Assembly: GCA_902801425.1 (NCBI GenBank)
Contig: CADCIQ010000010.1
Coordinates: 1 to 42,347, forward strand
Origin: an uncultured Bacteroidales bacterium
GTDB taxonomy: Bacteria > Bacteroidota > Bacteroidia > Bacteroidales > Bacteroidaceae
Length of the DNA: 42,347 nt
Reading direction: 5' to 3'
Shown here: positions 2,696 through 40,542 of the stretch, in pieces
Numbering within the stretch: position 1 is the first letter of the stretch
How the letters are laid out: each line of letters begins with the position of its first letter
Notes under the pieces: model-generated
Databases searched by the model: none
What the model saw: only the letters and a program-made list of their open reading frames with translations
Told to the model about the DNA's origin: nothing
Made by a program: the position numbers and the translations under genes

Positions 2696-5600
2696 ATGCA
2701 ACCCTTAACAGTCTATAAGGCCAGTGCCGGCAGCGGTAAGACATTCACACTTGCCGTAGAATTTATCAAACTGCTCATTCTGAACCCTCGTAAATACGAG
2801 AATATCCTAGCCGTGACCTTCACCAACAAGGCAACGGAAGAGATGAAACATCGTATAGTAAGCCAGCTATACGGACTTTCACATGGCCTTAAAAGCAGCG
2901 ATTCATATCTGAAGAAGATAACGACGGAACTCGATGTTTCCGAGGATTTCGTGCGCAAGAATGCAGATATAGCACTCCATAACCTCCTGCACAACTACAA
3001 CCAGTTCCGTGTCCAGACCATCGATGCCTTCTTCCAGAGCATACTCCGCAATATGGTGAAGGAACTCGGTCTTGGTAATAACCTCCGTATATCCCTCAAC
3101 GATAGTCAGGTTATTTCCGAGGCTGTTGACTCCATCATGGAGACTCTCGACAAGGACAAGGCGCTTATGTCGTGGATCATCGAGTATGTAAACGAGCGCA
3201 TGGATGATCAGAAGTCATGGGATATTACAGGAGAGGTAAAGTCATTCGGAATGAACCTCAGTAAGGAGTTCTTCAAAAGTAATGAGCACCTGCTAAAGTC
3301 TATCGCGAATGACAAAGACTTCTTCTCGCGCTATAAAAAGGCAATGACAGCCATTATAAGGGGCGCAGAGGCTCATTTCAAGGAGTGTGGTGAGTATTTC
3401 CTCACGATGCTATCAAACGCAGGCTACAGCGCCACAGATCTCGCCTTTGGCAAAACTGGCGTTGCGGGCTATTTCCTCAAGCTCAAAGATGGTGATTTCG
3501 TCAAAGACAATATCGTAGGTGCACGTGTTCTGGCTGCAATGAACGATCCGATGAAATGGGGAACAAAGAAGAACGCAAGCGAAATAGCACCTTTGGCAGA
3601 AAGTCTGCTAATCCCCTACCTCATCGGAATTGAGAAGGAACGTCAGGCTGAAGTTCCGAAAGTACGCTCTGCCATCATCACCTTGAAGAACATCAATAAG
3701 ATGCGCCTGTTGTTCAGCATCCGCGAGGAAATGGATAGGCTGAACAAGGAAAATGCGCGTTTCATGCTCTCCAACACCCAGATGGTGCTTAGTCAGATGA
3801 TACAGGAGGACACCAATATCGCTCCGTTCATCTATGAAAAGATCGGGGCATACCTCCAGCATATCATGATTGACGAGTTCCAGGACACGAGTACCGTGCA
3901 GTGGAAGAACTTCAAGGTGCTGCTCGAAAACTGCATGGCAGGAAACGAAGACAATCCTCAGAACGAGGGTGCGATAAACAACCTTATCGTGGGCGATGTG
4001 AAGCAGAGCATATACCGTTTCCGTTCTGGAGACTGGCGATTGCTCAATGGTATTGAGCATGAATTCGGAGATGGAATGATAAAGATTCAGCCACTTGCAA
4101 CAAACTGGCGTTCAGAGCGTAATATCATTTCGTTCAACAATCACTTCTTTAAGCAAGTATGCAATATAGAGGCTGATAATATTATGCCACAGGATGCAAT
4201 GGCGCAGCAGGAATTCATTGAAGCAAACAACCTCTCTGCCGAGGCTGCACAGCGGATGAACACCTACGCAGAGGCTCTGCGCCATGCATACGATGATGTG
4301 GCACAGGATATCCCCGACTTCAAGCCAAATCGTGGTCTTGTGCGTGTAGAAATGCTCCCAGAAGAACGTGGTGCTTTCGTAGAGGCGGCAAAGATACGCA
4401 CACTCGACTACATCCAAAGCCTTATAACGCAGGGAGTCAAGCCAAGCGAGATTGCGATACTCGTCCGTTTCAACCATGAGGCATCAGATATCGCCCAGTA
4501 TTTCGCAGAAAACGCACCAGAACTGAGCATCGTCTCTGAACAGGCATTCACACTTGAGGCTTCCCCATTGGTTACAATGATTATATCAATGCTGCGCCTT
4601 CTTCGCAATGCCAACGATAAACAGGCGGAAATAACCCTCGTGAAGCTCTACATCGCCTATATCCTTCGTGAAGACCTTACGGACGGTAGCATACTCACAT
4701 CCGAAAATGCTTTCCAGACCTATCTTCCAAAGGAGACATCAAGCGAGGAGGCAATGGAACAGATGCGCTCTATGTCGCTCTATGAACTTTCCGAGTACAT
4801 CTACCGTATGCTCTGCCTCTCCAAGCTTGAAGGTCAGGCTCCATACGCCACGGCTTTCTTCGATGGTTTGAAGAAATACATGGAGGACAACATTGCTACA
4901 ATCGAGGAATTCCTTGACTACTGGGATAGCGAACTCCATAGCAAGGCAATATCCGTTGGAAGCGGCGACAGCATACGCATCATCACCATACACAAGAGTA
5001 AGGGACTTGAGTTCAGACACCTCGTAATGCCTTTCTGTAACTGGAATATGGCATCACGACATACAGAGACGCTTTGGTGCACTATCAACGAGCAACCGTT
5101 CTCCGACCTTCCTTTCATCCCTGTTGACTACACAAGCCGTACAAGTCTCCAGAACTCTATCTACGAGCCTTACGGCATAGAGGAATGGATGCAGGGAATC
5201 GTTGACAACCTCAATCTTCTCTATGTGGCATTCACACGCGCAGGACGCTCTCTCTTCGTTATTGGCAGTGAATATGCCAAGGAAGACAATCGTTCATACG
5301 CCCTTATCGATGCATTGCGCAGAATTGCCGATTCCAACGAACTTGAAGGCTGTTCTTTCGAGGATAACACATCCGATAAAGATCAAGAGAATGCCTCTCC
5401 TTCCATCTTCACCTTCGGAGAGCACTATTTCGAAGACAAGGAGGAAAAGGGCAAGGAATCCGACAACGTATTCGAGTGCACCCCAACGGCAATCCCTGTA
5501 AGCATTGAAAGCTACGACTCTGAGAACATCTCTTTCCGTCAGAGTAACAAGAGTCGTGAGTTTGCAGCAGATACCCTTAATGATGATGACAGCAAGCGAT

Positions 5601-6037
5601 ACACAACTATGGGCTCTATCATGCACATGCTCTTCTCTCGCATCCACACCACTGCCGACATCGACAAGGAACTGCGCCAGTTCGAGTTTGACGGTGTGAT
5701 TTACGATGAAACCATAACCGCTGAGGAACTACGCAGAGAGTTAAAGCAGAAGTTCAGCAACGCAATCGTATCTTCTTGGTTTTCCGATAAATGGACGGTA
5801 TTCAACGAGTGTAACATCATGCAGCTCAAGGATGGAAAGATAGTGGAAGACCGTCCTGACCGCGTAATAACCGACGACAACGAGACAATAGTCATCGACT
5901 ATAAGTTCGGACATAAGAATGCCGCCTATAACAAGCAGGTACAGCGTTATATGAACCTCATGCAGCAAATGGGCTACCCTAACGTAAAGGGCTATCTCTG
6001 GTACGTCAATCTTGACGAAATCGAGAGTGTGGTTTAG
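2696..6037 (+). CDS. addA: UvrD/RecB-type helicase-nuclease (AddA-like)
   Basis: The 1113-residue protein is a superfamily 1A helicase fused to a C-terminal PD-(D/E)XK nuclease, the AddA subunit of the Bacteroidetes AddAB complex that resects double-strand ends for RecA-dependent repair. The Walker A KASAGSGKT is at residues 8-16, Walker B MIDEFQDTS at about 391-399, motif V/VI regions IHKSKGLEF (about 763) and LLYVAFTRAG (about 841), and the nuclease motif IVIDYKFG near 1063. It is followed by addB on the same strand. The last two codons and the stop TAG lie inside a 14-bp repeat array (6032-6073), so the C-terminus may have been reset by the repeat. No clear promoter was seen in the 97-base upstream gap. 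Confidence 0.92.
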   Translation: MQPLTVYKASAGSGKTFTLAVEFIKLLILNPRKYENILAVTFTNKATEEMKHRIVSQLYGLSHGLKSSDSYLKKITTELDVSEDFVRKNADIALHNLLHNYNQFRVQTIDAFFQSILRNMVKELGLGNNLRISLNDSQVISEAVDSIMETLDKDKALMSWIIEYVNERMDDQKSWDITGEVKSFGMNLSKEFFKSNEHLLKSIANDKDFFSRYKKAMTAIIRGAEAHFKECGEYFLTMLSNAGYSATDLAFGKTGVAGYFLKLKDGDFVKDNIVGARVLAAMNDPMKWGTKKNASEIAPLAESLLIPYLIGIEKERQAEVPKVRSAIITLKNINKMRLLFSIREEMDRLNKENARFMLSNTQMVLSQMIQEDTNIAPFIYEKIGAYLQHIMIDEFQDTSTVQWKNFKVLLENCMAGNEDNPQNEGAINNLIVGDVKQSIYRFRSGDWRLLNGIEHEFGDGMIKIQPLATNWRSERNIISFNNHFFKQVCNIEADNIMPQDAMAQQEFIEANNLSAEAAQRMNTYAEALRHAYDDVAQDIPDFKPNRGLVRVEMLPEERGAFVEAAKIRTLDYIQSLITQGVKPSEIAILVRFNHEASDIAQYFAENAPELSIVSEQAFTLEASPLVTMIISMLRLLRNANDKQAEITLVKLYIAYILREDLTDGSILTSENAFQTYLPKETSSEEAMEQMRSMSLYELSEYIYRMLCLSKLEGQAPYATAFFDGLKKYMEDNIATIEEFLDYWDSELHSKAISVGSGDSIRIITIHKSKGLEFRHLVMPFCNWNMASRHTETLWCTINEQPFSDLPFIPVDYTSRTSLQNSIYEPYGIEEWMQGIVDNLNLLYVAFTRAGRSLFVIGSEYAKEDNRSYALIDALRRIADSNELEGCSFEDNTSDKDQENASPSIFTFGEHYFEDKEEKGKESDNVFECTPTAIPVSIESYDSENISFRQSNKSREFAADTLNDDDSKRYTTMGSIMHMLFSRIHTTADIDKELRQFEFDGVIYDETITAEELRRELKQKFSNAIVSSWFSDKWTVFNECNIMQLKDGKIVEDRPDRVITDDNETIVIDYKFGHKNAAYNKQVQRYMNLMQQMGYPNVKGYLWYVNLDEIESVV

Positions 6038-6073
6038 AGTTTAGTGTTTAGAGTTTAGTGTTTAGAGTTTAGT
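6032..6073. repeat. 14-bp repeat, three perfect copies (six 7-bp units), overlapping the addA stop
   Basis: GTTTAGAGTTTAGT occurs three times without a gap (6032-6045, 6046-6059, 6060-6073). Each copy is two heptads, GTTTAGA and GTTTAGT. The addA stop TAG (6035-6037) lies in the first copy, and every unit brings further TAG triplets. Confidence 0.95.
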
Positions 6074-6141: not shown

Positions 6142-9066
6142 ATGAAGTCCTTCCTGAACATAGTAGCACAAGATATACTCGCTAAGTACGGCACAAACCT
6201 ATCCGAAGTGGTTGTTGTATTCCCGAACAAGCGAGCATCCCTTTTCCTCAATGAGGAACTAATAAAGCTCTCCGACGGCAAGCCTGTCTGGAGTCCTAAG
6301 TACATGACCATTAGCGAGCTATTCCGTTCGCAGAGCCAGCTCGTCGTTGCCGACCAGATAAAACTCGTATGCGAACTTTACAAGCATTACGCGGAAAAGA
6401 CCGGAACCACCGAGACTCTCGATGATTTCTACGGCTGGGGCGAACTCATGCTTTCCGATTTCGACGACCTCGACAAGAACATGGGCGATGCTGAGCATAT
6501 CTTCGAAAACACCGATGAGATTCACTCGTATGACAGCGCCGACTATCTATCCGAAGACCAGAAAGAAGCCCTGAAGCGTTTCTTCTCCAACTTCAGCGAT
6601 GATGACTCTAAGGTGAAGCAGAACTTCGCACAGCTATGGAACAACCTCGGAAACATCTACACATCCTTCCGCGATAGTCTCCGTGCCCAAGGCATCGCAT
6701 ACGAGGGTATGCTATACCGCGATGTAGCCGAGGAATTAAAGTTATCCACCACCACCCACACCCCATCACCCACTACCCACTACCTGTTCGTAGGCTTCAA
6801 CCTTATCCAGCCTGTTGAACAAGAGCTTATGGCATACATGAAGCGTGAGGGCAAGGCTGCATTCTACTGGGATTACGACAACTACTATATGAAAGACGGC
6901 AATGAGGCTGGTCGCTATATCAAGTCCTATCTCTCTGCCTTCCCTAATGAGATAACGCTTCCAGAGGCTTTCAATAACTTCACTAACAAGCCAAACATCA
7001 CATATATCTCTGCATCTACGGAAGATATTCAGGCACGATATGTAAGCCAATGGCTAACGGAAGAGCGCATAAAGGCAGGCAAACGCACGGCAATCGTACT
7101 TTGCGACGAGAAACTGCTCCCTACCGTCCTCCATGCCCTTCCTGATAGCGTAAAGGACATCAACATAACTTCGGGCTACCCACTCCAACAGACTCTCATC
7201 GCAACGCTCGTAAAGCAGATTTTCATCCTCAAGCAGCGCGGCTCTTCTCGCATCAAGGGTGCTTTGCGACTGCATCAGGTGAACACAGTCCTGCATCATC
7301 CGTACATGAAATATATTTCTGATAATGCAGAAAGACTGATCACAGAGCTTAACGACGAGAAAAAGAAGGTGTTCTACCCTACTATCGAGGAACTGTCCCT
7401 TGACGAGCACCTTGCAAATATCTTCACTCCCATAAGCCATCACGACGAGGCTGCAACTCCACTCGAAGCACAACGTCTGCGTTGTCTCGACATCATAACG
7501 TGCATCTCGAAGGCAATACATCGCATAGCAACCTACTGTGCCGAGCCTGATCCTCTGATGCAGGAATCGCTATACCGTATGTATCAGATAATGAATCGCG
7601 TCAGCACGCTCATCGAATCCGAGGAACTCATCGTAAGCGATTCTTCCCTTCAAGGCATCCTCAACCAGATTATCCGCTCCACATCCGTGCCTTTCCACGG
7701 AGAGCCTATCATCGGTATTCAGGTAATGGGCGTACTCGAAACCCGTAACCTCGATTTCGACCACATGCTCATCCTCTCTGCCAACGAGGGTAACATACCG
7801 AAGAGCGTAAACGACTCTTCATTCATACCGCACGTAATACGCCGCGCATACGGTCTCACAACTATAGAGAACAAGATTGCTATCTATGCGTATTACTTCC
7901 ACCGAATGATGCAGAGAGCTACTGATGTATCAATCACCTACAACAACTCCACAAACGACACCAAGACCAACGAAATGTCGCGCTTCATGATGCAGCTCAT
8001 CGCAGAATCCAACCTAAAGATAAACATTGCCGAGATGACATCATCACTTCTCGTTGGCAAGACGGAGCGATGCGATGTACAGAAAAACAAAGAAGTCATC
8101 GAGAAGATGGAGCAGGAAAGTTCCATTTCACCGACAGCCGTAAACACCTACCTGCGCTGTCAGTTGCAGTATTTCTACAGGTTCGTGTGCGGAATCAACG
8201 ACAACACCGAAAGCGACGAGGAGGAAATGGACAACCGCGTATTCGGTCTTGTTTTCCATAAGGCTGCCGAAATCCTCTATACTCCCTTCAAGGGTAAGAG
8301 CGTAACCGAATCCACTATAGACGGTATGCTCAAGGATCCATCTATAATAGAACGTGCAATAGATGAAGGTTTCAAGGAGGAGCTGTTCTCTCTAAAGGAT
8401 GAAGAGGCAAAGAAGCGTCCGATGCCGACGCTCGACGGCACCCAGCTCATTCATCGTGAGATAATAAGGAAAATGCTGCGACAGCTTCTTGAATACGACA
8501 AGAAGAACTGTCCGATAACTATTGTAGATGTTGAGAAGAATATCTACGACTCTATCACCTTCGATACCGATCGTGGCCCTCGCACTCTGAAAATCAAAGG
8601 AATCATCGACCGTCTCGACATTGTGAAGAACGATAACGGACACCTCCAGATGCGTGTCGTTGACTACAAGACTGGTTCTCGCGAGCCTGGCAACGTGAAG
8701 TCGGTTAGTGATATTTTCACTCCTGAGGGTGCCAATTCAAATGCGCACACCGACTATTATCTCCAGACTCTTCTCTACTCTCGCATCCTTGCCCTCCCTA
8801 TGCAGGGCACACCACAGAACGGCACCAATCCTGTCGTTCCTGCCCTTCTCTACCCTCACCGCTCACAGGCGGAAAACTACGACCCTGTATTGAAGATTAA
8901 CAAGGAGAAAATCACGGATATCAAAGAATTTGCCACCGAATACAACGATGGCTTCATCCGTGTCCTGAAGGATATCTATGATTATTCCCGTCCTTTCGCT
9001 GCTACGCAGAATGCCGACCAATGCCCAAGATGTTTCTATAAGAACATTTGCGGAGTGCGGAAATAA
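6142..9066 (+). CDS. addB: AddB-like exonuclease subunit with PD-(D/E)XK domain and Fe-S cysteines
   Basis: The 974-residue protein is the partner of AddA. The C-terminal RecB-family nuclease carries VVDYKTGS (D about 841). Four cysteines fit the AddB iron-sulfur staple: one in YLRCQLQYF (about C673) and three in CPRCFYKNIC (about C961, C964, C970). The N-terminus (VVVVFPNKRASLFL) sits where Bacillus AddB has a Walker A motif, but no GxGKT is present, as in other Bacteroidetes homologues. Residues 202-214 (Ser-Thr-Thr-Thr-His and onward) are encoded by a 7-bp-period array inserted in frame. It starts 104 bases after addA and is followed by a bidirectional repeat shared with prmA. Confidence 0.9.
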   Translation: MKSFLNIVAQDILAKYGTNLSEVVVVFPNKRASLFLNEELIKLSDGKPVWSPKYMTISELFRSQSQLVVADQIKLVCELYKHYAEKTGTTETLDDFYGWGELMLSDFDDLDKNMGDAEHIFENTDEIHSYDSADYLSEDQKEALKRFFSNFSDDDSKVKQNFAQLWNNLGNIYTSFRDSLRAQGIAYEGMLYRDVAEELKLSTTTHTPSPTTHYLFVGFNLIQPVEQELMAYMKREGKAAFYWDYDNYYMKDGNEAGRYIKSYLSAFPNEITLPEAFNNFTNKPNITYISASTEDIQARYVSQWLTEERIKAGKRTAIVLCDEKLLPTVLHALPDSVKDINITSGYPLQQTLIATLVKQIFILKQRGSSRIKGALRLHQVNTVLHHPYMKYISDNAERLITELNDEKKKVFYPTIEELSLDEHLANIFTPISHHDEAATPLEAQRLRCLDIITCISKAIHRIATYCAEPDPLMQESLYRMYQIMNRVSTLIESEELIVSDSSLQGILNQIIRSTSVPFHGEPIIGIQVMGVLETRNLDFDHMLILSANEGNIPKSVNDSSFIPHVIRRAYGLTTIENKIAIYAYYFHRMMQRATDVSITYNNSTNDTKTNEMSRFMMQLIAESNLKINIAEMTSSLLVGKTERCDVQKNKEVIEKMEQESSISPTAVNTYLRCQLQYFYRFVCGINDNTESDEEEMDNRVFGLVFHKAAEILYTPFKGKSVTESTIDGMLKDPSIIERAIDEGFKEELFSLKDEEAKKRPMPTLDGTQLIHREIIRKMLRQLLEYDKKNCPITIVDVEKNIYDSITFDTDRGPRTLKIKGIIDRLDIVKNDNGHLQMRVVDYKTGSREPGNVKSVSDIFTPEGANSNAHTDYYLQTLLYSRILALPMQGTPQNGTNPVVPALLYPHRSQAENYDPVLKINKEKITDIKEFATEYNDGFIRVLKDIYDYSRPFAATQNADQCPRCFYKNICGVRK
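6746..6787 (+). repeat. In-frame 7-bp-period array inside addB
   Basis: Six heptads follow without a gap: CCACCAC, CACCCAC, ACCCCAT, CACCCAC, TACCCAC, TACCTGT. They encode a Ser/Thr/His/Pro-rich stretch (residues about 202-214). The unit resembles the CCAACAC array at 26900-26955 and, on the other strand, the array in miaA. Confidence 0.85.
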
Positions 9067-9067
9067 G

Positions 9068-9194
9068 TGAATAGTGAAAAGTGAATAATACTTAATACTG
9101 GTGGACACCGATATGAGTTTTTTACGATGATTTCCAATCGCGACAGCAGTATTTTTAACTAAGTATTATTCACTATTCACTTTTCACTATTCAT
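9068..9194. repeat. Heptad inverted repeat between convergent addB and prmA
   Basis: The left arm (9068-9101) has GTGAATA, GTGAAAA, GTGAATA, then ATACTTAATACTG. The right arm (9147-9194) is its reverse complement with one extra heptad. The right arm ends at the base before the prmA stop codon. It could terminate both genes, but it lacks the GC-rich stem and T-run of a classical terminator. Confidence 0.85.
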
Positions 9195-13222: not shown

Positions 13223-13258
13223 ACACTAATTTCCTTATTGTTACCTGTTACTTGTTAC
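13223..13258 (-). repeat. Iteron-type repeat R1 (perfect partner of R4)
   Basis: This 36-base repeat begins ACACTAATTTCC and continues with GTTAC-type heptads. Its reverse complement is identical over all 36 bases to 13981-14016. Together they bound a 794-base unit like terminal inverted repeats. No target-site duplication was seen. Confidence 0.9.
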
Positions 13259-13263
13259 TGTCT

Positions 13264-13429
13264 CCCTTCTACCTCCCTTCTACCTCCCTTGCTACTCCCA
13301 TTTTTCTCTCATTCTAAGGAACGGACTTGAAACGGATTAGAAGCGAAGGAGAAACGGACCTGAAACGGACCTGGAACGGAGGTACAACGGACTTACATCG
13401 GATTTACAACGGATTTACAACGGAACGGC
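13264..13429 (+). repeat. 11-bp-phased array: five CCC units, one G, ten AACGG units
   Basis: Units of exactly 11 bases run from 13264. Five begin CCC or a variant (CCCTTCTACCT twice, CCCTTGCTACT, CCCATTTTTCT, CTCATTCTAAG). A single G follows at 13319. Ten units then begin AACGG or a close variant (for example AACGGACTTGA, AACGGACCTGA, AACGGATTTAC) up to 13429. The first 3-5 bases of each unit are conserved and the rest vary. An inverted homologue lies at 39728-39849. Confidence 0.9.
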
Positions 13430-13618
13430 ATCAAAAGGGAAGCCCAAGCATTTTTCGCGTATTTTCATCGGTTTTCAAGCATTCAGAACAAGGCGAATCA
13501 GCCCGAAATTAATGCTTATTGAGACTTTCAGCCTCCTACGCCCCACCCTCCTGTTTTATATAACAGCCTCATTATCTTCTTCTTAGACAATTTTGGCAAG
13601 CAAGCGCAATCACGACCA

Positions 13619-13645
13619 GTAACAAGTAACAGGTAACAATAAGGA
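13619..13645 (+). repeat. Iteron-type repeat R2
   Basis: GTAACAA, GTAACAG, GTAACAA, TAAGG heptads face right, toward an AT-rich core (13687-13722). It matches the first 27 bases of R4 and then diverges. Confidence 0.88.
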
Positions 13646-17410: not shown

Positions 17411-17416
17411 CTTTTG

Positions 17417-17489
17417 TCGGGGTGACAGGACTCGAACCTGCGACAGCCTGGTCCCAAACCAGGAACGCTACCAACTGCGCTACACCCCG
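17417..17489 (-). tRNA. tRNA-Pro (anticodon TGG), copy 2
   Basis: The acceptor stem CGGGGTG pairs with CACCCCG, and the anticodon loop is TTTGGGA with anticodon TGG. The T-loop GGTTCGAGTCC is intact. No CCA is encoded (CAA follows the discriminator A). The 73 bases are identical to the copy at 17522-17594. Confidence 0.96.
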
Positions 17490-17521
17490 GAAGTATGTGG
17501 GTATGTATGTTCAAATGAAAG

Positions 17522-17594
17522 TCGGGGTGACAGGACTCGAACCTGCGACAGCCTGGTCCCAAACCAGGAACGCTACCAACTGCGCTACACCCCG
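17522..17594 (-). tRNA. tRNA-Pro (anticodon TGG), copy 1
   Basis: It is identical to the copy at 17417-17489 and lies 32 bases upstream of it on the same strand. Both are served by the promoter at 17637-17668. CCA is not encoded. Confidence 0.96.
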
Positions 17595-19480: not shown

Positions 19481-19628
19481 AACTATTTACTATTTAACTA
19501 TTTACTATTTTTTGTTAAGAGTGAAAAATGAAGAGTGAAGAATTTAAGTTACATTGTTCTGGCAATGGATGCTTGAAACGGTAATACAAATTTAAATTCT
19601 TCACTCTTCACTTTTCACTCTTCACTTC
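19481..19628. repeat. Heptad arrays between mrcA and the helicase gene
   Basis: Two parts are present. TTTACTA-type heptads (about 19486-19511) end at the helicase start. An inverted repeat follows: GTGAAAA, ATGAAGA, GTGAAGA (about 19519-19545) against CTTCACT, CTTCACT, TTTCACT, CTTCACT (about 19597-19628). The outer arm ends 3 bases before the mrcA stop. Confidence 0.85.
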
Positions 19629-23947: not shown

Positions 23948-24071
23948 AAAACAATTAACAATTAATAATTAACAATCAACATGCCTTTCGTTTCAAACGG
24001 AGAGCGTAAAGAAACCGCAATTCTGCGCCAGCCTATGTTAATTGTTAATTGTCAACATGTTAATTATTAAT
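23948..24071. repeat. Heptad inverted repeat between lpxC-fabZ and lpxA
   Basis: The left arm has AATTAAC-type units ending in CAACATG. The right arm (from about 24035) is the reverse complement (TTAATTG, TTAATTG, CAACATG, TTAATTA) and runs over the lpxC-fabZ stop codon (24067-24069). Confidence 0.82.
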
Positions 24072-26661: not shown

Positions 26662-26899
26662 CTAAAAATAATCGAGAACACGAAAACTTTATATAACTTT
26701 TTGCGTTTTCAAAGTTTTTTTGGATAATTATAAGATAAAATAGTACAATTGAAACCGGGTTTCAGAGTCACATACGGCCGTTCATGTTTCTCTTTGCTCC
26801 CATTCACCCTCTGCTTTTTGTCTGCTTACCCTCTGCTCAAATAGCAGAGCCACAGCGGAGGCATAGCGAAAGCAGAACGGAGGTTTATCATACATCATC

Positions 26900-26955
26900 C
26901 CAACATCCAACACCCAACATTTAACACCCAACACCCAACACCTAACACCCAGCAC
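26900..26955 (-). repeat. CCAACAC heptad array, eight units
   Basis: CCAACAT, CCAACAC, CCAACAT, TTAACAC, CCAACAC, CCAACAC, CTAACAC and CCAGCAC follow without gaps (8 x 7 = 56 bases). A frame on the minus strand (Trp-Val-Leu-Gly type) is a translation of the repeat, not a gene. Confidence 0.93.
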
Positions 26956-27091: not shown

Positions 27092-27402
27092 CATCGAGTT
27101 TACTCTTTACCTCTTTACCTTTCCCAGCCAGAAAAGGTAAAAAGGTAAAAGGTAAAGTGGTAAAGTCCTTAGAAAGTGAAAATACAAGTGTGTAGTCATT
27201 AGGGTTAAATTATTAATCTTATATAATCTATTTTATTAATTATATATAATATAATTAATAAAATAGAACTTAGAATATAGATATTTTTCTCTATTGACAA
27301 ATTCAATTTCATCGAGTTTACCTCTTTACCTTTTACCTTTTTTCGAGTAAGGGGTAGTAAAAAAGTAAAGAGTAAAGAGGTAAAGTCTATGAAAAGTGAA
27401 AT
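27092..27402. repeat. Composite iteron/AT-core element II
   Basis: Two similar blocks (27092-27168 and 27311-27392) each begin CATCGAGTTTAC, run through TTTACC-type units, turn over a short centre and return as GGTAAAG-type units ending AAAGTC. Each is followed by GAAAGTGAAA or a one-base variant. Between them lies an AT palindrome with perfect 16-base arms (27229-27244 with 27252-27267). The order is left-facing, right-facing, AT core, left-facing, right-facing, as with R1-R4. Confidence 0.85.
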
Positions 27403-29388: not shown

Positions 29389-29395
29389 GCTTTTA

Positions 29396-29500
29396 AATGA
29401 AAAATGAATAATGAAAAATCATAAAATACATTTTAGAATATGGCCATTAAGTGAAAAGTGTAATCTGTATTTTTCCATTTTTCACTTTTCATTTAATAAT
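29396..29500. repeat. Heptad inverted repeat after prfA
   Basis: The left arm has ATGAAAA, ATGAATA, ATGAAAA and ends in AAAATACA. The right arm has TGTATTTTTC, then TTTTTCA, CTTTTCA. It ends at the base before the prfA stop codon (29501). Confidence 0.82.
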
Positions 29501-33418: not shown

Positions 33419-33625
33419 GTAGGTTATAAGGTTGAATGGTTATAAGGTTAGAAGGTCAGTATCGCTTAGAAATTAAAAAGTAAAAATTAAGAAGTAAAAA
33501 GTATGGTTTGTATTTTCTCGACTACCTTTCGCTATACAAGGTAATCATACTTTTTAATTTTTCCTTTTTACTTTATACTTTTCAAAAACATTCCGACCTC
33601 AAAACCTGAAAACCTCTAAACCCTA
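33419..33625. repeat. Nested inverted repeat between purC and ubiE
   Basis: The outer arms are AGGTTATA/AGGTTAGA-type units (33420-33458) against GACCTCAAAACCTGAAAACC (about 33596 on). The inner arms are heptads AATTAAA, AAGTAAA, AATTAAG, AAGTAAA, AAGTATG (33471-33505) against ATACTTT, TTAATTT, TTCCTTT, TTACTTT, ATACTTT (33546-33580). It runs into the purC stop codon. Confidence 0.85.
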
Positions 33626-36971: not shown

Positions 36972-38171
36972 TTATTTCATTACTATCTTCTTACCATTAA
37001 CTATATACATGCCGTTGGGCTGCACCTCTGTAACCTTACGTCCTTGCAGATCGTAAATGGCAGTTTTCTTTTCAGATTGTTCTGAACCGACAGAACTTAT
37101 ACCAGTAGCTTGTTCCTTTGGCAAAATCTGATCTGCATGATCTTTCCAATATTTCGCATTGCGATAAGTTTCAAGCGCGTTTTCCGACACATAGATAGTG
37201 CAGAGAAAACCAAATGATTCTACATCATAAAGAGTTGGAGGAGTTTCTGATGTAAATTCTATTACTAAATCTTTGTCACCTGTTTGAGGAAACGCCTGAT
37301 AGCCTATTTCCGTTACATTTTTAGGGATTTTTACATATTTCAATTTTGTACACCCCTCGAAAGCAGCTTCTCCAATACTTGTCACGCTATTAGGGATTGT
37401 AATGCTTGTAAGTCCAGAGCATTCATAGAATGCATTTTCCCCAATGCTTGTCACGCTGTTAGGGATTGTAATGCTTGTAAGGCCAGAGCAACGCCAGAAT
37501 GCACCAGATACAATGCTTGTCACGCTGTTTGGAATAGTGATGTCTGTAAGTCCAGAGCAGTCACCGAAAGCATATTCTCCAATGCTTGTCACACTGTTAG
37601 GGATTGTAATACTTGTAAGTCCCGTGCATCCATTGAAAGCCATTTCTCCAATGCTTGTCACGCTGTTAGGGATTGTAATGCTTGTAAAGCCAGTACATCC
37701 ATCGAAAGCAAAAGAACCAATACTTGTCACGCTGTTTGGAATGGTTATATTTGTAAGTGCCGTACAATTATAGAAGGCACGATGTCCAATACTTTTAACA
37801 CTATTTGGTATTGTCACCTTAGTAAGTGGAGTACATTCATAGAAGGAATCTCCACCAATATGGGTGACACCATTCTCTATTACTACTGCTTTTATTTTTT
37901 TATATAGCTCAACACCCCACGGTGAATGAACAGGTTGGAGTGCATAATCGTCCATCGCGCCGTTTCCATAGATACGGAGAGTATAATCATCATACAATTC
38001 GTAATTGACATTCTTTCCGCAAGACCCAGAAGCGATAACTTTCCCCTTTGCTGCACCATTCAATGGAACATCTACATCTGATGACTGAAGTGTAGCAATT
38101 CCACCTACCTGTGCATATATCATAGGAGTTGCACAAACCAATACTGATATTATTCCCAATAATCTTTTCAT
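36972..38171 (-). CDS. Secreted BspA-like leucine-rich repeat protein (copy 2)
   Basis: The 399-residue protein has a signal peptide ([20 protein letters not shown]), a conserved N-domain ([20 protein letters not shown]), then about nine 23-residue LRR_5/BspA-like repeats of the form [18 protein letters not shown], and a YDLQGRKV...GMYIVNGKK tail as in many Prevotella exported proteins (possibly a sorting signal). BspA-type proteins bind host or bacterial surfaces. ATG at 38171 replaces GTG at 38195. The DNA of the middle repeats is nearly identical (69-base period), which points to recent expansion. Its promoter is probably that of the upstream paralogue, 20 bases away. Confidence 0.9.
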
Positions 38172-38191
38172 TGCTGTGTTATTTTTTTTTA

Positions 38192-39328
38192 TCACTTATT
38201 CACTACCTTCTTTCCATTTACGATATAAATTCTATCAGGCAGCATCTCTGTCACCCTATGTCCTTGCAGGTCATAAACAGCATCAGCTTTCATCGCAGAC
38301 TGTCCATCGCCTACAGACCTGATGCCTGTAGTAGAGCTATACCCGTAAAGTTGATCCTTATAACATGACCAATCTTCCGAATTGCGATAATCATCAAGCA
38401 TTGTTTCTGGTACACGAATAATGATGTTTTTAGGATCTTTATTGCTAAAGCCAAAAGCATCGCTGGTAGAAGGTTCATAATGGTCATAATAGTAAACCCT
38501 TCCATCAAGGAGCGTTATATGCGTTTCGGCAGCAATCTCTATTTCAATTTTTCTATTTGTGTAGTCATTAAAGAAGGCTCCATCATCAATAACAGTAACA
38601 CCCTTACCTATCTTTACGTATTCCAAATTGTCACACGAACCGAATGCCCACTCGCCTATTGATGTAACACCATCCGGAATGATTACCTCTGTAAGTGAAC
38701 ATCCTGAGAATGCAAATTCTCCAATGCTTGTAACACTATTAGGAATGTCTATATGTGCAAGTGAACTACATTCACAGAAAACATCTTTATCTATAGTTTC
38801 TAGACCATCCGGGATATTTACTTCAGCAAGTGAACTACAATGCGAAAAAGCACAAGCCCCTATGCTAGTCACGCTGTTAGGAATGTTTATCTTTTTTAGT
38901 GCCGTACAATGACTAAAGGCTTCACGACCAATACTCGTGACTGTATTGGATATGTTTACTTCAGTAAGTGAAGTAAAAGCAAAGAAGGAATCAGCACCGA
39001 TTCGAGTGACACCATCCTCAATAACCACTGATTTTATTTTCGAATCCCATGATGACCATGGTGTATCGGAATACATTCTATTGGGAGTATAGATATAATT
39101 ATAATTGTACATTGCTCCCTTTCCGAAAATACGGAGGGTATAGTCATCATACAATTCGTAATTAACATTCTTTCCACAAGAGCCGGAATACAAGACTCTT
39201 CCCCTTACTGCACCATTCGATCTCATCTCAACATCTGATGATTCGTGTGCAGCAATTCCATCTGCCTGTGCATAAATCATAGGAGTTGCACAAAGCATGA
39301 ACGATAATACGCCAAGTGTCTTTTTCAT
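38192..39328 (-). CDS. Secreted BspA-like leucine-rich repeat protein (copy 1)
   Basis: The 378-residue paralogue of the next gene shares its signal peptide pattern ([16 protein letters not shown]), the [20 protein letters not shown] domain and the [11 protein letters not shown] tail. It has about six more diverged 23-residue repeats and an acidic insertion (about 262-300) before the tail. It starts about 140 bases downstream of a good promoter and probably heads a two-gene unit. Confidence 0.9.
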
Positions 39329-39508: not shown

Positions 39509-39727
39509 TTTTCACGAAAAAATATCAAATAATTCCTCAAAAAACACAGTATTGACATGTGAACTCCAAAATGCAGAGACATAACGGGGGATTTCATTGA
39601 AAACCAAGTAGAGCCTCCCCAAAAGGAACAAATCCAAACACGCAACAACCAAAGTGCTAAATAACATGATCTAATACAGGGTGTAATACTTTCAAGGGTA
39701 TTACACCAATCCCCAAACACCCTATTA
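39509..39727. other. Gene-free stretch with one hairpin
   Basis: No credible gene. A hairpin GGTGTAATAC against GTATTACACC lies around 39680-39708, flanked by further imperfect copies of ACACCCTATTAC. Nothing else was recognised. Confidence 0.6.
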
Positions 39728-39849
39728 CATCCTTCGTTCAGCCTTCGTCGTAAGTCCGTTATGCCTCCGTTGTGAAACCGTTGTAAATCCGTTCCTAAGA
39801 ATGGGAGAAAAATGGGATTTGGTAGGGATTTGCAAGGGAATCACATGGG
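39728..39849 (-). repeat. 11-bp-phased array, inverted homologue of 13264-13429
   Basis: Read on the minus strand: five CCC-type 11-base units (39849 to 39795), one G (39794), then six AACGG-type or related units (39793 to 39728: AACGGATTTAC, AACGGTTTCAC, AACGGAGGCAT, AACGGACTTAC, GACGAAGGCTG, AACGAAGGATG). The number of CCC units and the single-base phase break equal those of the other locus. Confidence 0.9.
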
Positions 39850-39872
39850 AATTGGAGAAATACCCATCCTGC

Positions 39873-40025
39873 GGTCATTTTGGTCATTTTGGTCATTTGG
39901 TCAAAATGATTTTGAGTTGTCAATATCTCCCACTATATATAAATATTCTATATTTATATATAGTGAGTAAATGACACAATCCGAAAATGAAAATGACCAT
40001 TTTGACCTTGACCACTTTGACCACA
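39873..40025. repeat. Composite iteron/AT-core element III
   Basis: Left iterons GGTCATTTT, GGTCATTTT, GGTCATTT, GGTCAAAAT (39873-39907) face an AT palindrome with perfect 15-base arms (39931-39945 with 39951-39965, CACTATATATAAATA and its complement). Right iterons of the TGACC type (39994-40025) face back. Confidence 0.88.
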
Positions 40026-40054
40026 TTTGATTCTCATACTTTTTTAGTGATTTC

Positions 40055-40110: not shown

Positions 40111-40542
40111 ATGGAGATAATAAGAGCAACAAAGACGGCAGAACAAGCAGGAGCTTATTATGTTCGCATTCAGGCTATGGCACGTAAACATCAGATTCCT
40201 CTAAACGTGGAATTTGACGAGCATGACACACCCGAAACAAAGTACATCGTAGTGATTGACAACTACTTACCAATAGCCACTTGCCGTTTGTATGCCATAA
40301 ACTACGAACAAGTTATGCTTGGGCGTATTGTCGTTCTCCCAGAATATCGTCTTCAAGGACTTGGCACTCTCGTTGTAAAGGAAGCCGAGAAATGGGCTAA
40401 GGAACTTGGCTATCACACCGCCATAGTTGAAAGTCGAGATAACAAAGTTCATTTTTACGAGACTATGGGATATGTGGCAGACTATTCCCAAAAGATTATT
40501 GGAGAAACATTTACCTGCTTTAGAATGGAGAAGGAGTTATAA
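40111..40542 (+). CDS. GNAT-family N-acetyltransferase
   Basis: The 143-residue protein has the acetyl-CoA loop RLQGLGT (about 79-85) after the strand MLGRIVVLPEY, and the C-terminal AIVESRDNKVHFYETMGY typical of GNAT enzymes. The N-terminus resembles ElaA-like or YjcF-like small-molecule acetyltransferases; the substrate is unknown. ATG at 40111 was chosen over TTG at 40084 because the promoter -7 box covers the latter. It is monocistronic. Confidence 0.9.
   Translation: MEIIRATKTAEQAGAYYVRIQAMARKHQIPLNVEFDEHDTPETKYIVVIDNYLPIATCRLYAINYEQVMLGRIVVLPEYRLQGLGTLVVKEAEKWAKELGYHTAIVESRDNKVHFYETMGYVADYSQKIIGETFTCFRMEKEL

Follow-up and report, generated by a model that had tools for sequence, protein, structure and literature searches.

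Short tandem units that lie between genes in many copies are known from the cyanobacterial STRR heptamers, which resemble the arrays described here in this respect and differ from them in unit length; they are not known to have inverted arms or a helical register. The closest described element that was found is BrickBuilt, a MITE of Porphyromonas gingivalis with a 23-nt minisatellite, for which the part of the source drawn on here gives 19 copies in ATCC 33277, a defined leader and tail, and inverted-repeat ends (PMC4596501). Like the present arrays, BrickBuilt belongs to the Bacteroidales, is intergenic and multi-copy, has a limited host range, and consists of short spacerless tandem units inside a non-autonomous element; its 23-nt unit corresponds to about two helical turns. 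From BrickBuilt as that part of the source describes it, the present arrays differ in their 11-bp units, the switch of strand between two arms, the varying words within one array, and the several different partner modules, and in that 69 arrays were read in one genome (PMC4596501).

Two systems of Escherichia coli and phage Mu are comparable at the DNA level. The BIMEs, or REP mosaics, of E. coli are also mosaic intergenic repeats, although REPs are palindromes, unlike the arrays. Strong gyrase sites such as the Mu SGS resemble the arrays in having two arms around a centre and a period of about 11 bp, in their case of G/C; the gyrase motif, as given in the portion of the paper used here, has 130 bp with a 36-bp centre, two 47-bp arms, and a 10.75-bp G/C period, and it is degenerate, whereas the arrays have fixed words and other arm distances (PMC6379681). 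According to the same portion, gyrase cleavage sites are over-represented in some BIME-2 repeats and downstream of operons with high transcription, and what draws E. coli gyrase to regions downstream of transcription was not hard-wired in the sequence (PMC6379681). At the RNA level, the rut sites of Rho, defined for RhoTermPredict in the excerpt used as 78 nt with C over G and cytosines every 11-13 nt, resemble the arrays in the C-run every 11 nt on the incoming strand and in that own arms are not selected to pair; the arrays differ from rut sites in keeping mostly one 11-bp register for both strands and in lying often after a terminator-like hairpin or between divergent genes (PMC6407284). 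No description of such arrays was found in the open-access literature searched by title and the beginning of the abstract.

The window, that is, the whole stretch of 42,347 nucleotides of an uncultured Bacteroidales bacterium that was analysed, has two arrays of this type, designated A and B (Table 1). On the minus strand, array B reads from 39849 as five CCC units (CCCATGTGATT CCCTTGCAAAT CCCTACCAAAT CCCATTTTTCT CCCATTCTTAGG), one extra base, and six AACG-type units down to 39728 (AACGGATTTAC AACGGTTTCAC AACGGAGGCAT AACGGACTTAC GACGAAGGCTG AACGAAGGATG), as an earlier note on this DNA had described, and array A has five and ten. The fifth unit of the CCC arm of A starts with CTCTC, not CTCCC, and the five units span 13262-13316. 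The same note had called the units beside the junction almost identical, which is true of CCCATTTTTCT, common to both arrays, and not of the first unit on the AACGG side, which is AACGGATTTAC in B and AACGGACTTGA in A. It had also placed GTTACC or TGACC iterons on the CCC side of both arrays in the same relative orientation. This is so for B, where the inverted TGACC pair (39873-39903 and 39994-40030) lies on the CCC side only; the GTTACC heptads of A flank the array on both sides, on the plus strand at 13238-13259 and inverted at 13618-13639. The GTTACC and TGACC iterons are different repeat families, and they are rather pieces of different neighbouring repeat modules than a fixed part of the array. 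The TGACC module also adjoins the arrays of L021, L038, L187, and L184, and a sequence resembling GGTGTAATAC...GTATTACACC borders arrays at other loci, e.g., L050, L065, and L072.

Table 1. Positions of arrays A and B and of the adjoining features in the window
Feature	Position	Strand
Array A, CCC arm (five units and AGG joint)	13262..13319	+
Array A, AACGG arm (ten units)	13320..13429	+
Multi-copy repeat enclosing array A, without ORFs of at least 80 aa	13185..14165	none
Array B, AACGG arm (six units: four AACGG, two RACGAAGG)	39728..39793	-
Array B, CCC arm (five 11-bp units and one extra base at the joint)	39794..39849	-
TGACC module (inverted iterons around an AT-rich palindrome)	39866..40030	none
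Inverted sequence GGTGTAATAC...GTATTACACC adjoining the AACGG arm of array B	39680..39707	none
Flanking gene, BspA-type leucine-rich repeat protein, reading away from array B	38192..39328	-
Flanking gene, GNAT acetyltransferase, reading away from array B	40111..40542	+

Are A and B a special pair? The local alignment of A with the reverse complement of B has a score of 65, while 2000 dinucleotide shuffles gave a mean of 16.5 (sd 2.5) and a maximum of 29, so that the likeness survives the comparison with shuffled sequence on which the earlier note had staked it. The match is not exclusive: among the 67 other own arrays, 16 resemble B and 12 resemble A as closely as A and B resemble each other, or more so. 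The nearest relatives of B are L187 (score 173) and L038 (155), not A, and 32 of the 54 arrays with a clear left arm have the register of A and B, most of them with the same kind of joint. A derivation of A and B from each other is thus not supported; what stands of the proposed common origin is one family with a common joint and gain or loss of whole units. A and B are two members of a large intergenic family of 11-bp-unit repeats.

Members of the family are numerous in the genome. The pattern AACGG-N6-AACGG-N6-AACGG has 140 exact matches in the genome of the window (G000) and 0 in the reversed control, or 205 against 0 with up to one mismatch. Almost all arrays are intergenic, and the first mechanical gene call (greedy longest ORFs) gave few ORFs overlapping them (2 own, 5 other). 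In the window, Rfam at the gathering threshold found nothing except two tRNAs; the window has a tandem pair of tRNA-Pro(TGG) genes with equal covariance scores at 17416-17594. Of the 398 genus genomes, only seven have more than three copies of the exact triple (G233 213, G181 161, G000 140, G256 95, G095 39, G365 18, and G153 10); since so few genomes carry arrays, their function would not be essential to the genus. The CCTTCG form of the unit, when one mismatch is allowed, brings in G015 (14), G277 (12), and G370 (8), of which G277 is unconfirmed as a carrier because the array rule held at 0 of 2 loci read. In a Rho tree of 30 rows, the bootstrap values of which are rough, six array genomes form one clade (100/100) and G153 and G015 another, and these two separate clades place the 11-bp design, as far as the Rho sequences indicate, in at least two lineages.

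In total, 126 distinct arrays were read, 69 from the own genome and 57 from five named MAGs among the matches listed. The public-genome carriers among these matches are uncultured Prevotellaceae or Bacteroidales MAGs (RUG14644, RUG14400, RUG12352, SRR12081301_bin.40, and SRR12081293_bin.68). Four of the five MAGs duplicate genus genomes, with the same Rho coordinates (G422=G233, G423=G181, G424=G256, and G426=G095), and the fifth is G425. The scan of the named collection, which may omit the window's own genome, gave at least 80 loci; 55 from the five MAGs were used and 25 were set aside. The latter are mostly single matches in unrelated genomes, with similar runs in L081, L105, L114, and L120; L114, from Bacteroides acidifaciens DSM 15896 outside the genus, has a single AACGGAGGTGAAACGGACTTGAAACGG-like 11-bp run at about 7868-7922 on the minus strand. 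Of 20 further loci read from G153, G015, G370, G277, and G365, 18 have arrays by the rule. The arrays were collected with AACGG patterns, so the constancy of AACGG is partly by construction, and the own stretches were chosen for arrays; arrays of the same centre have common ancestry, and their counts are therefore not independent events.

The arrays consist of two arms of opposite strand sense, made of 11-bp units, with a short centre; 11 bp is about one turn of the DNA double helix. The right arm is a run of AACGG plus a six-base word, with 99 different words in 493 units, of which the fourth base is T in 92% and the fifth base is A or G in 99%. The most common length is four units (74 of 126 arrays by strict AACGG and 61 of 126 with variant units), and 42 of 126 right arms are longer by the variant rule. 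As the variant count lengthens the right arms, it weakens both their fit to the 47-bp gyrase arm and the argument that they give against rut sites. Left arms have a core of CCCAT (outward ATGGG), CCTTCG (outward CGAAGG), or CTCTTAT, and ATCC in some G153 and G370 loci. These types share the 11-bp period, a fixed position for a C-run or CG, and, about half a turn off, a pyrimidine-purine step.

The two arms mostly keep one common register. Five in-phase CC at a lag of 11 occur 88 times in 454 kb of own stretches, which were chosen for arrays; no other lag between 8 and 16 gives more than 8, and 253 kb of relatives give 0. A clear left phase was found in 54 of the 123 arrays tested, and the CC residue of these is 10 in 32 arrays, 8 in 12 (CCTTCG type), 0 in five, 1 in three, and 9 in two. 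In 66 arrays to which the CC rule assigned no left arm, CG on the left of the centre is nonetheless most frequent at residue 1 (1.26 per array vs 0.15-0.20 at residues 3-7), but none of the 32 CCC-type left arms has CG at residue 1, and thus CG is not a universal mark. Of 196 distinct right-arm units, 82% have a pyrimidine-purine step at positions 8-9, roughly half a helical turn away from the CG. The G/C alternation is not clean, unit positions 6, 7, and 10 being G or C at 0.57-0.62, and the CGG block follows in part from the search pattern itself. The symmetry of the lattice has its dyad about 4 bp left of the AACGG arm.

The surroundings of the arrays are themselves mosaic. It was found that 60 of 138 own-array flanks fall in repeat clusters starting at the same offset from the array. 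Some repeat modules occur on either side of arrays, attached directly at the array ends, and some hold further 11-bp arrays of other words (CCTACACTAAA, ACACGTACATG, and AACATATACAC). I aligned 11 pairs of orthologous arrays (one duplicate having been removed from 12). Two gaps inside the arms are of exactly one 11-bp unit (L011/L091 and L045/L104), and the other in-arm gaps are a single base (L182/L123) and seven bases at an outer end (L009/L092). Another five gaps, located to the left of the arms or at the edges of the aligned stretches, have lengths that are not multiples of 11. In six of the 11 pairs (L011/L091, L018/L121, L048/L058, L184/L097, L188/L065, and L182/L123), the right flank is unrelated (54-59% mismatch) and the left flank alignable (2-23%). 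In L022/L100 it is the left flank that differs, and in L009/L092 both flanks differ. L184, the own-genome ortholog of L097, has a TGACC module where L097 has a palindromic module (363-900) of CCTACACTAAA-type 11-bp units in both orientations.

At locus B, the array and TGACC module of the window recur in G233. The TGACC module is missing there from G425, G095, and G256, which have a different 11-bp array with the AACGG arm on the opposite strand and nearly the same right boundary. CG occupies positions 3-4 of consecutive 11-bp cells in 12 of 13 cells (143 bp) in G256 and in 9 of 10 in both G095 and G425. An empty site had been expected from the search coordinates and was discarded when the alignment showed another array in the same slot; the states of locus B differ by replacement, not by clean insertion. 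All five genomes in which both flanks of locus B were found keep an array there; the GNAT side was absent among the listed matches of G181 and G365, which were thus not found with both flanks. That an array is kept in its slot while its sequence and direction have changed hints that the spacing itself may matter.

With the AACGG arm set on the plus strand and with mechanical gene calls, the gene pairs around the arrays are convergent in 38 cases, divergent in 11, plus-plus in 37, and minus-minus in 13. The excess of convergent over divergent pairs has a binomial P of 1.4e-4, and intervals of at least 150 bp without an array, taken from the same stretches, are 25 convergent to 36 divergent (odds ratio 5.0, Fisher P 1.9e-4). 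The 3′ end of the left neighbour faces the array in 90 of 120 cases. Plus-plus exceeds minus-minus with P 9e-4 overall, and at 20 to 10 (P 0.10) in the own genome alone. No convergent excess was seen in G153, G015, and G370, where 12 of the 16 loci have both neighbours (4 convergent, 3 divergent, 3 plus-plus, and 2 minus-minus) and several of the 16 are without a clear left arm. Array B, between the divergent BspA-type and GNAT genes, has a minority arrangement.

In 17 of 69 cases, the sequence from the left gene to the array contains a hairpin resembling an intrinsic terminator; the controls gave 0 of 69 inside the gene and 5 of 69 on the reverse strand. Of the 69 arrays without a clear left arm, 19 have on their right side a TAnCTTTGC-like promoter motif directed into the array, and none of the 54 with a clear left arm does (Fisher P 5e-6). 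A promoter pointing into the array was considered and dropped: the statistics are strong, yet the motif belongs to a repeated flank family, and its link to one array type may therefore be inherited. By its rule, this count leaves out L092, which has a left arm and the motif beyond a tRNA-like sequence; there (about 5312-5560), the tRNA-like sequence (tRNA-Asn by eye) and a terminator-like hairpin stand between the promoter-like motif and the array. In L028 and L096 (and L018), an ATG stands within a few bases of the motif and opens a short ORF that reaches or enters the CCGTT units. The next gene in L028 and L096 has the same direction as this ORF, so that the array may sit in a leader with a small upstream ORF.

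For the function of the arrays, I infer with reserve a role at the level of DNA: they may possibly be a MITE- or BIME-like mosaic intergenic repeat with, as its core, a putative helically phased site of DNA binding or wrapping, for which gyrase is the first candidate. As regards MITEs, the 126 arrays with their repeated flanks are multi-copy, intergenic, and non-coding, and the GTTACC module at A has inverted ends. The array would work as double-stranded DNA and would offer the same helix face at every turn to an enzyme that wraps DNA or to protomers bound in a row, and it would spread and be exchanged together with mobile non-coding modules. DNA gyrase would bind as it does at the Mu SGS or the BIMEs of E. 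coli and has perhaps half of the weight within this DNA-level role; a novel nucleoid protein would be the second candidate. The one unit per turn, the flexible step opposite CG, the two arms, the placement at 3′ ends, and the replaceable words would all fit a protein that wraps DNA or polymerises on it. The match to gyrase is not exact, as a four-unit arm ends about 48 bp from the dyad, whereas the gyrase arm extends from about 18 to 65 bp. Against a DNA-level role, inheritance may account for the register across the centre, as arrays of one type have this centre in common, and the register is inexact, 10 of 54 left arms lying at residues 9, 0, or 1; furthermore, AACGG is more constant than wrapping alone needs (partly by the construction of the sample), and locus B lies between divergent genes. 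A further proposal, which I regard as unlikely, is that the arrays are a hard-wired element of chromosome architecture, with at least 69 own-genome sites of about 100-145 bp. Such an element would offer gyrase or a novel Bacteroidales nucleoid protein one face at each turn on both sides of the dyad, mostly where transcription units end; selection would act only on phase and spacing, and the words and even the orientation of the array would turn over between species.

The main rival to a DNA-level role is a two-way Rho-dependent terminator, in which each arm would be a rut site, with a C-run every 11 nt, for the transcript arriving from its own side; it seems doubtful to me. It would agree with an incoming strand that is C-rich from both sides (C/G 1.75 left and 1.41 right) at lag 11, with the convergent placement, with own arms pairing less than swapped arms at variable positions, and with the promoter-like motif, although that motif may have come with its flank family. 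But a terminator-like hairpin often stands already before the array, locus B and 10 other arrays lie between divergent genes, and rut sites need no common helical register for arms acting on different transcripts. Also in favour of Rho, the protein of the main array clade (7 genomes) reads SPDDIFLT, with Phe in place of the Tyr of 26 others (7 vs 26) at the RNA-binding site, a residue that I take to be Tyr80 of the primary RNA site in E. coli, and its N-terminal region is rewritten (KKKRGRPSKADL) (L214, L206-L242). This change marks a single clade, and G153 and G015, which have CCTTCG arrays (G153 also AACGG), have Tyr and an ordinary Rho N-terminus. Loss of Rho_N as a partner of the arrays, suggested by where the Rho family match starts in ten genomes, was rejected with thirty more genomes: the array-free G240 and G150 also start late, with N-termini that look ordinary by eye, so that the match start is a poor marker. 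The remaining Rho signal is the rewritten N-terminus and the Tyr-to-Phe change in one clade, i.e., one event. A structured RNA, in which the two arms would form one long hairpin interrupted by a 2x2 internal loop at each helical turn, is attractive in single folds (several arrays fold so, e.g., L036, L037, and L022), but I consider it very improbable. Own arms have a mean of -28.4 kcal/mol and swapped arms -29.5 (P 0.96, 89 arrays), own arms are worse than swapped ones at variable positions (z -2.2, n=32; z -2.6, n=12), and the mean fold z is weaker than in flanking controls (-0.84 vs -1.39, 40 arrays). Covarying pairing between own arms was not seen in these comparisons, which largely refute the hairpin; arms that pair no better with their own partners than with strangers leave the recognition of single units in DNA, or of unpaired RNA.

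Do the arrays need a host function at all? They could be a minisatellite of non-autonomous mobile elements, the units of which are multiplied by slippage and homogenised between arrays by gene conversion, for which BrickBuilt offers a precedent in a MITE (PMC4596501, in the part used). The clustered flanks at a constant offset would fit this, as would the same right arm found beside different left arms (L036 and L037) and the array A repeat, which is about 1 kb long with many copies in related genomes. The end of the gene upstream of A matches loci in the four relatives checked (G425, G233, G095, and G365), and the repeat is absent from the 1.5 kb downstream of the matching gene in all four; in G233, one 50-bp match to the array units lies about 1 kb away. 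Nevertheless, an array without host function has a low probability in my estimate, as against it stand the 5 of 5 occupied slots at locus B with sequence and orientation replaced, the register that persists while the six-base words change, and the excess at convergent gene ends. It is also quite improbable that the units are iterons bound by a transposase or recombinase, with arms as ends of mobile modules and dyad arrays as joined ends. Modules do attach directly at either array end, one flank is unrelated beside an alignable other in orthologous pairs (the right one in six of 11, the reverse in L022/L100), and the palindrome of 11-bp iterons in L097 lies between an AACGG arm and a CCTTCG arm; but modules such as TGACC adjoin an array at only one of their sides, and 1 of 18 neighbour genes (beside L037) is transposase-like by eye, the others being mostly host-like.

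If spacing is selected, the arrays would be natural experiments on the placing of topological or termination machinery at gene ends, in a phylum little known in this respect and with dozens of sites, several species, and one array-swap locus. Even without function, the arrays form an unusual class of repeat, a minisatellite that switches strand and whose unit measures about one helical turn. For annotation, it should be borne in mind that iteron modules can make up a mosaic between the genes of these Prevotella-like genomes.

Arrays of 7-bp (also 8-9-bp) units are likewise numerous in the window; they often come in inverted pairs separated by tens to about 200 bp. They are found at 2605-2673, 6032-6072, 9066-9193, 19481-19626, 23950-24071, 26899-26955, 27132-27385, 29395-29494, and 33421-33622, and such arrays are frequent too in some relatives without 11-bp arrays (L160 of G009). 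Next to locus B, two adjoining BspA-type leucine-rich repeat genes occupy 36972-39328, with a 69-bp DNA repeat at 37358-37844.
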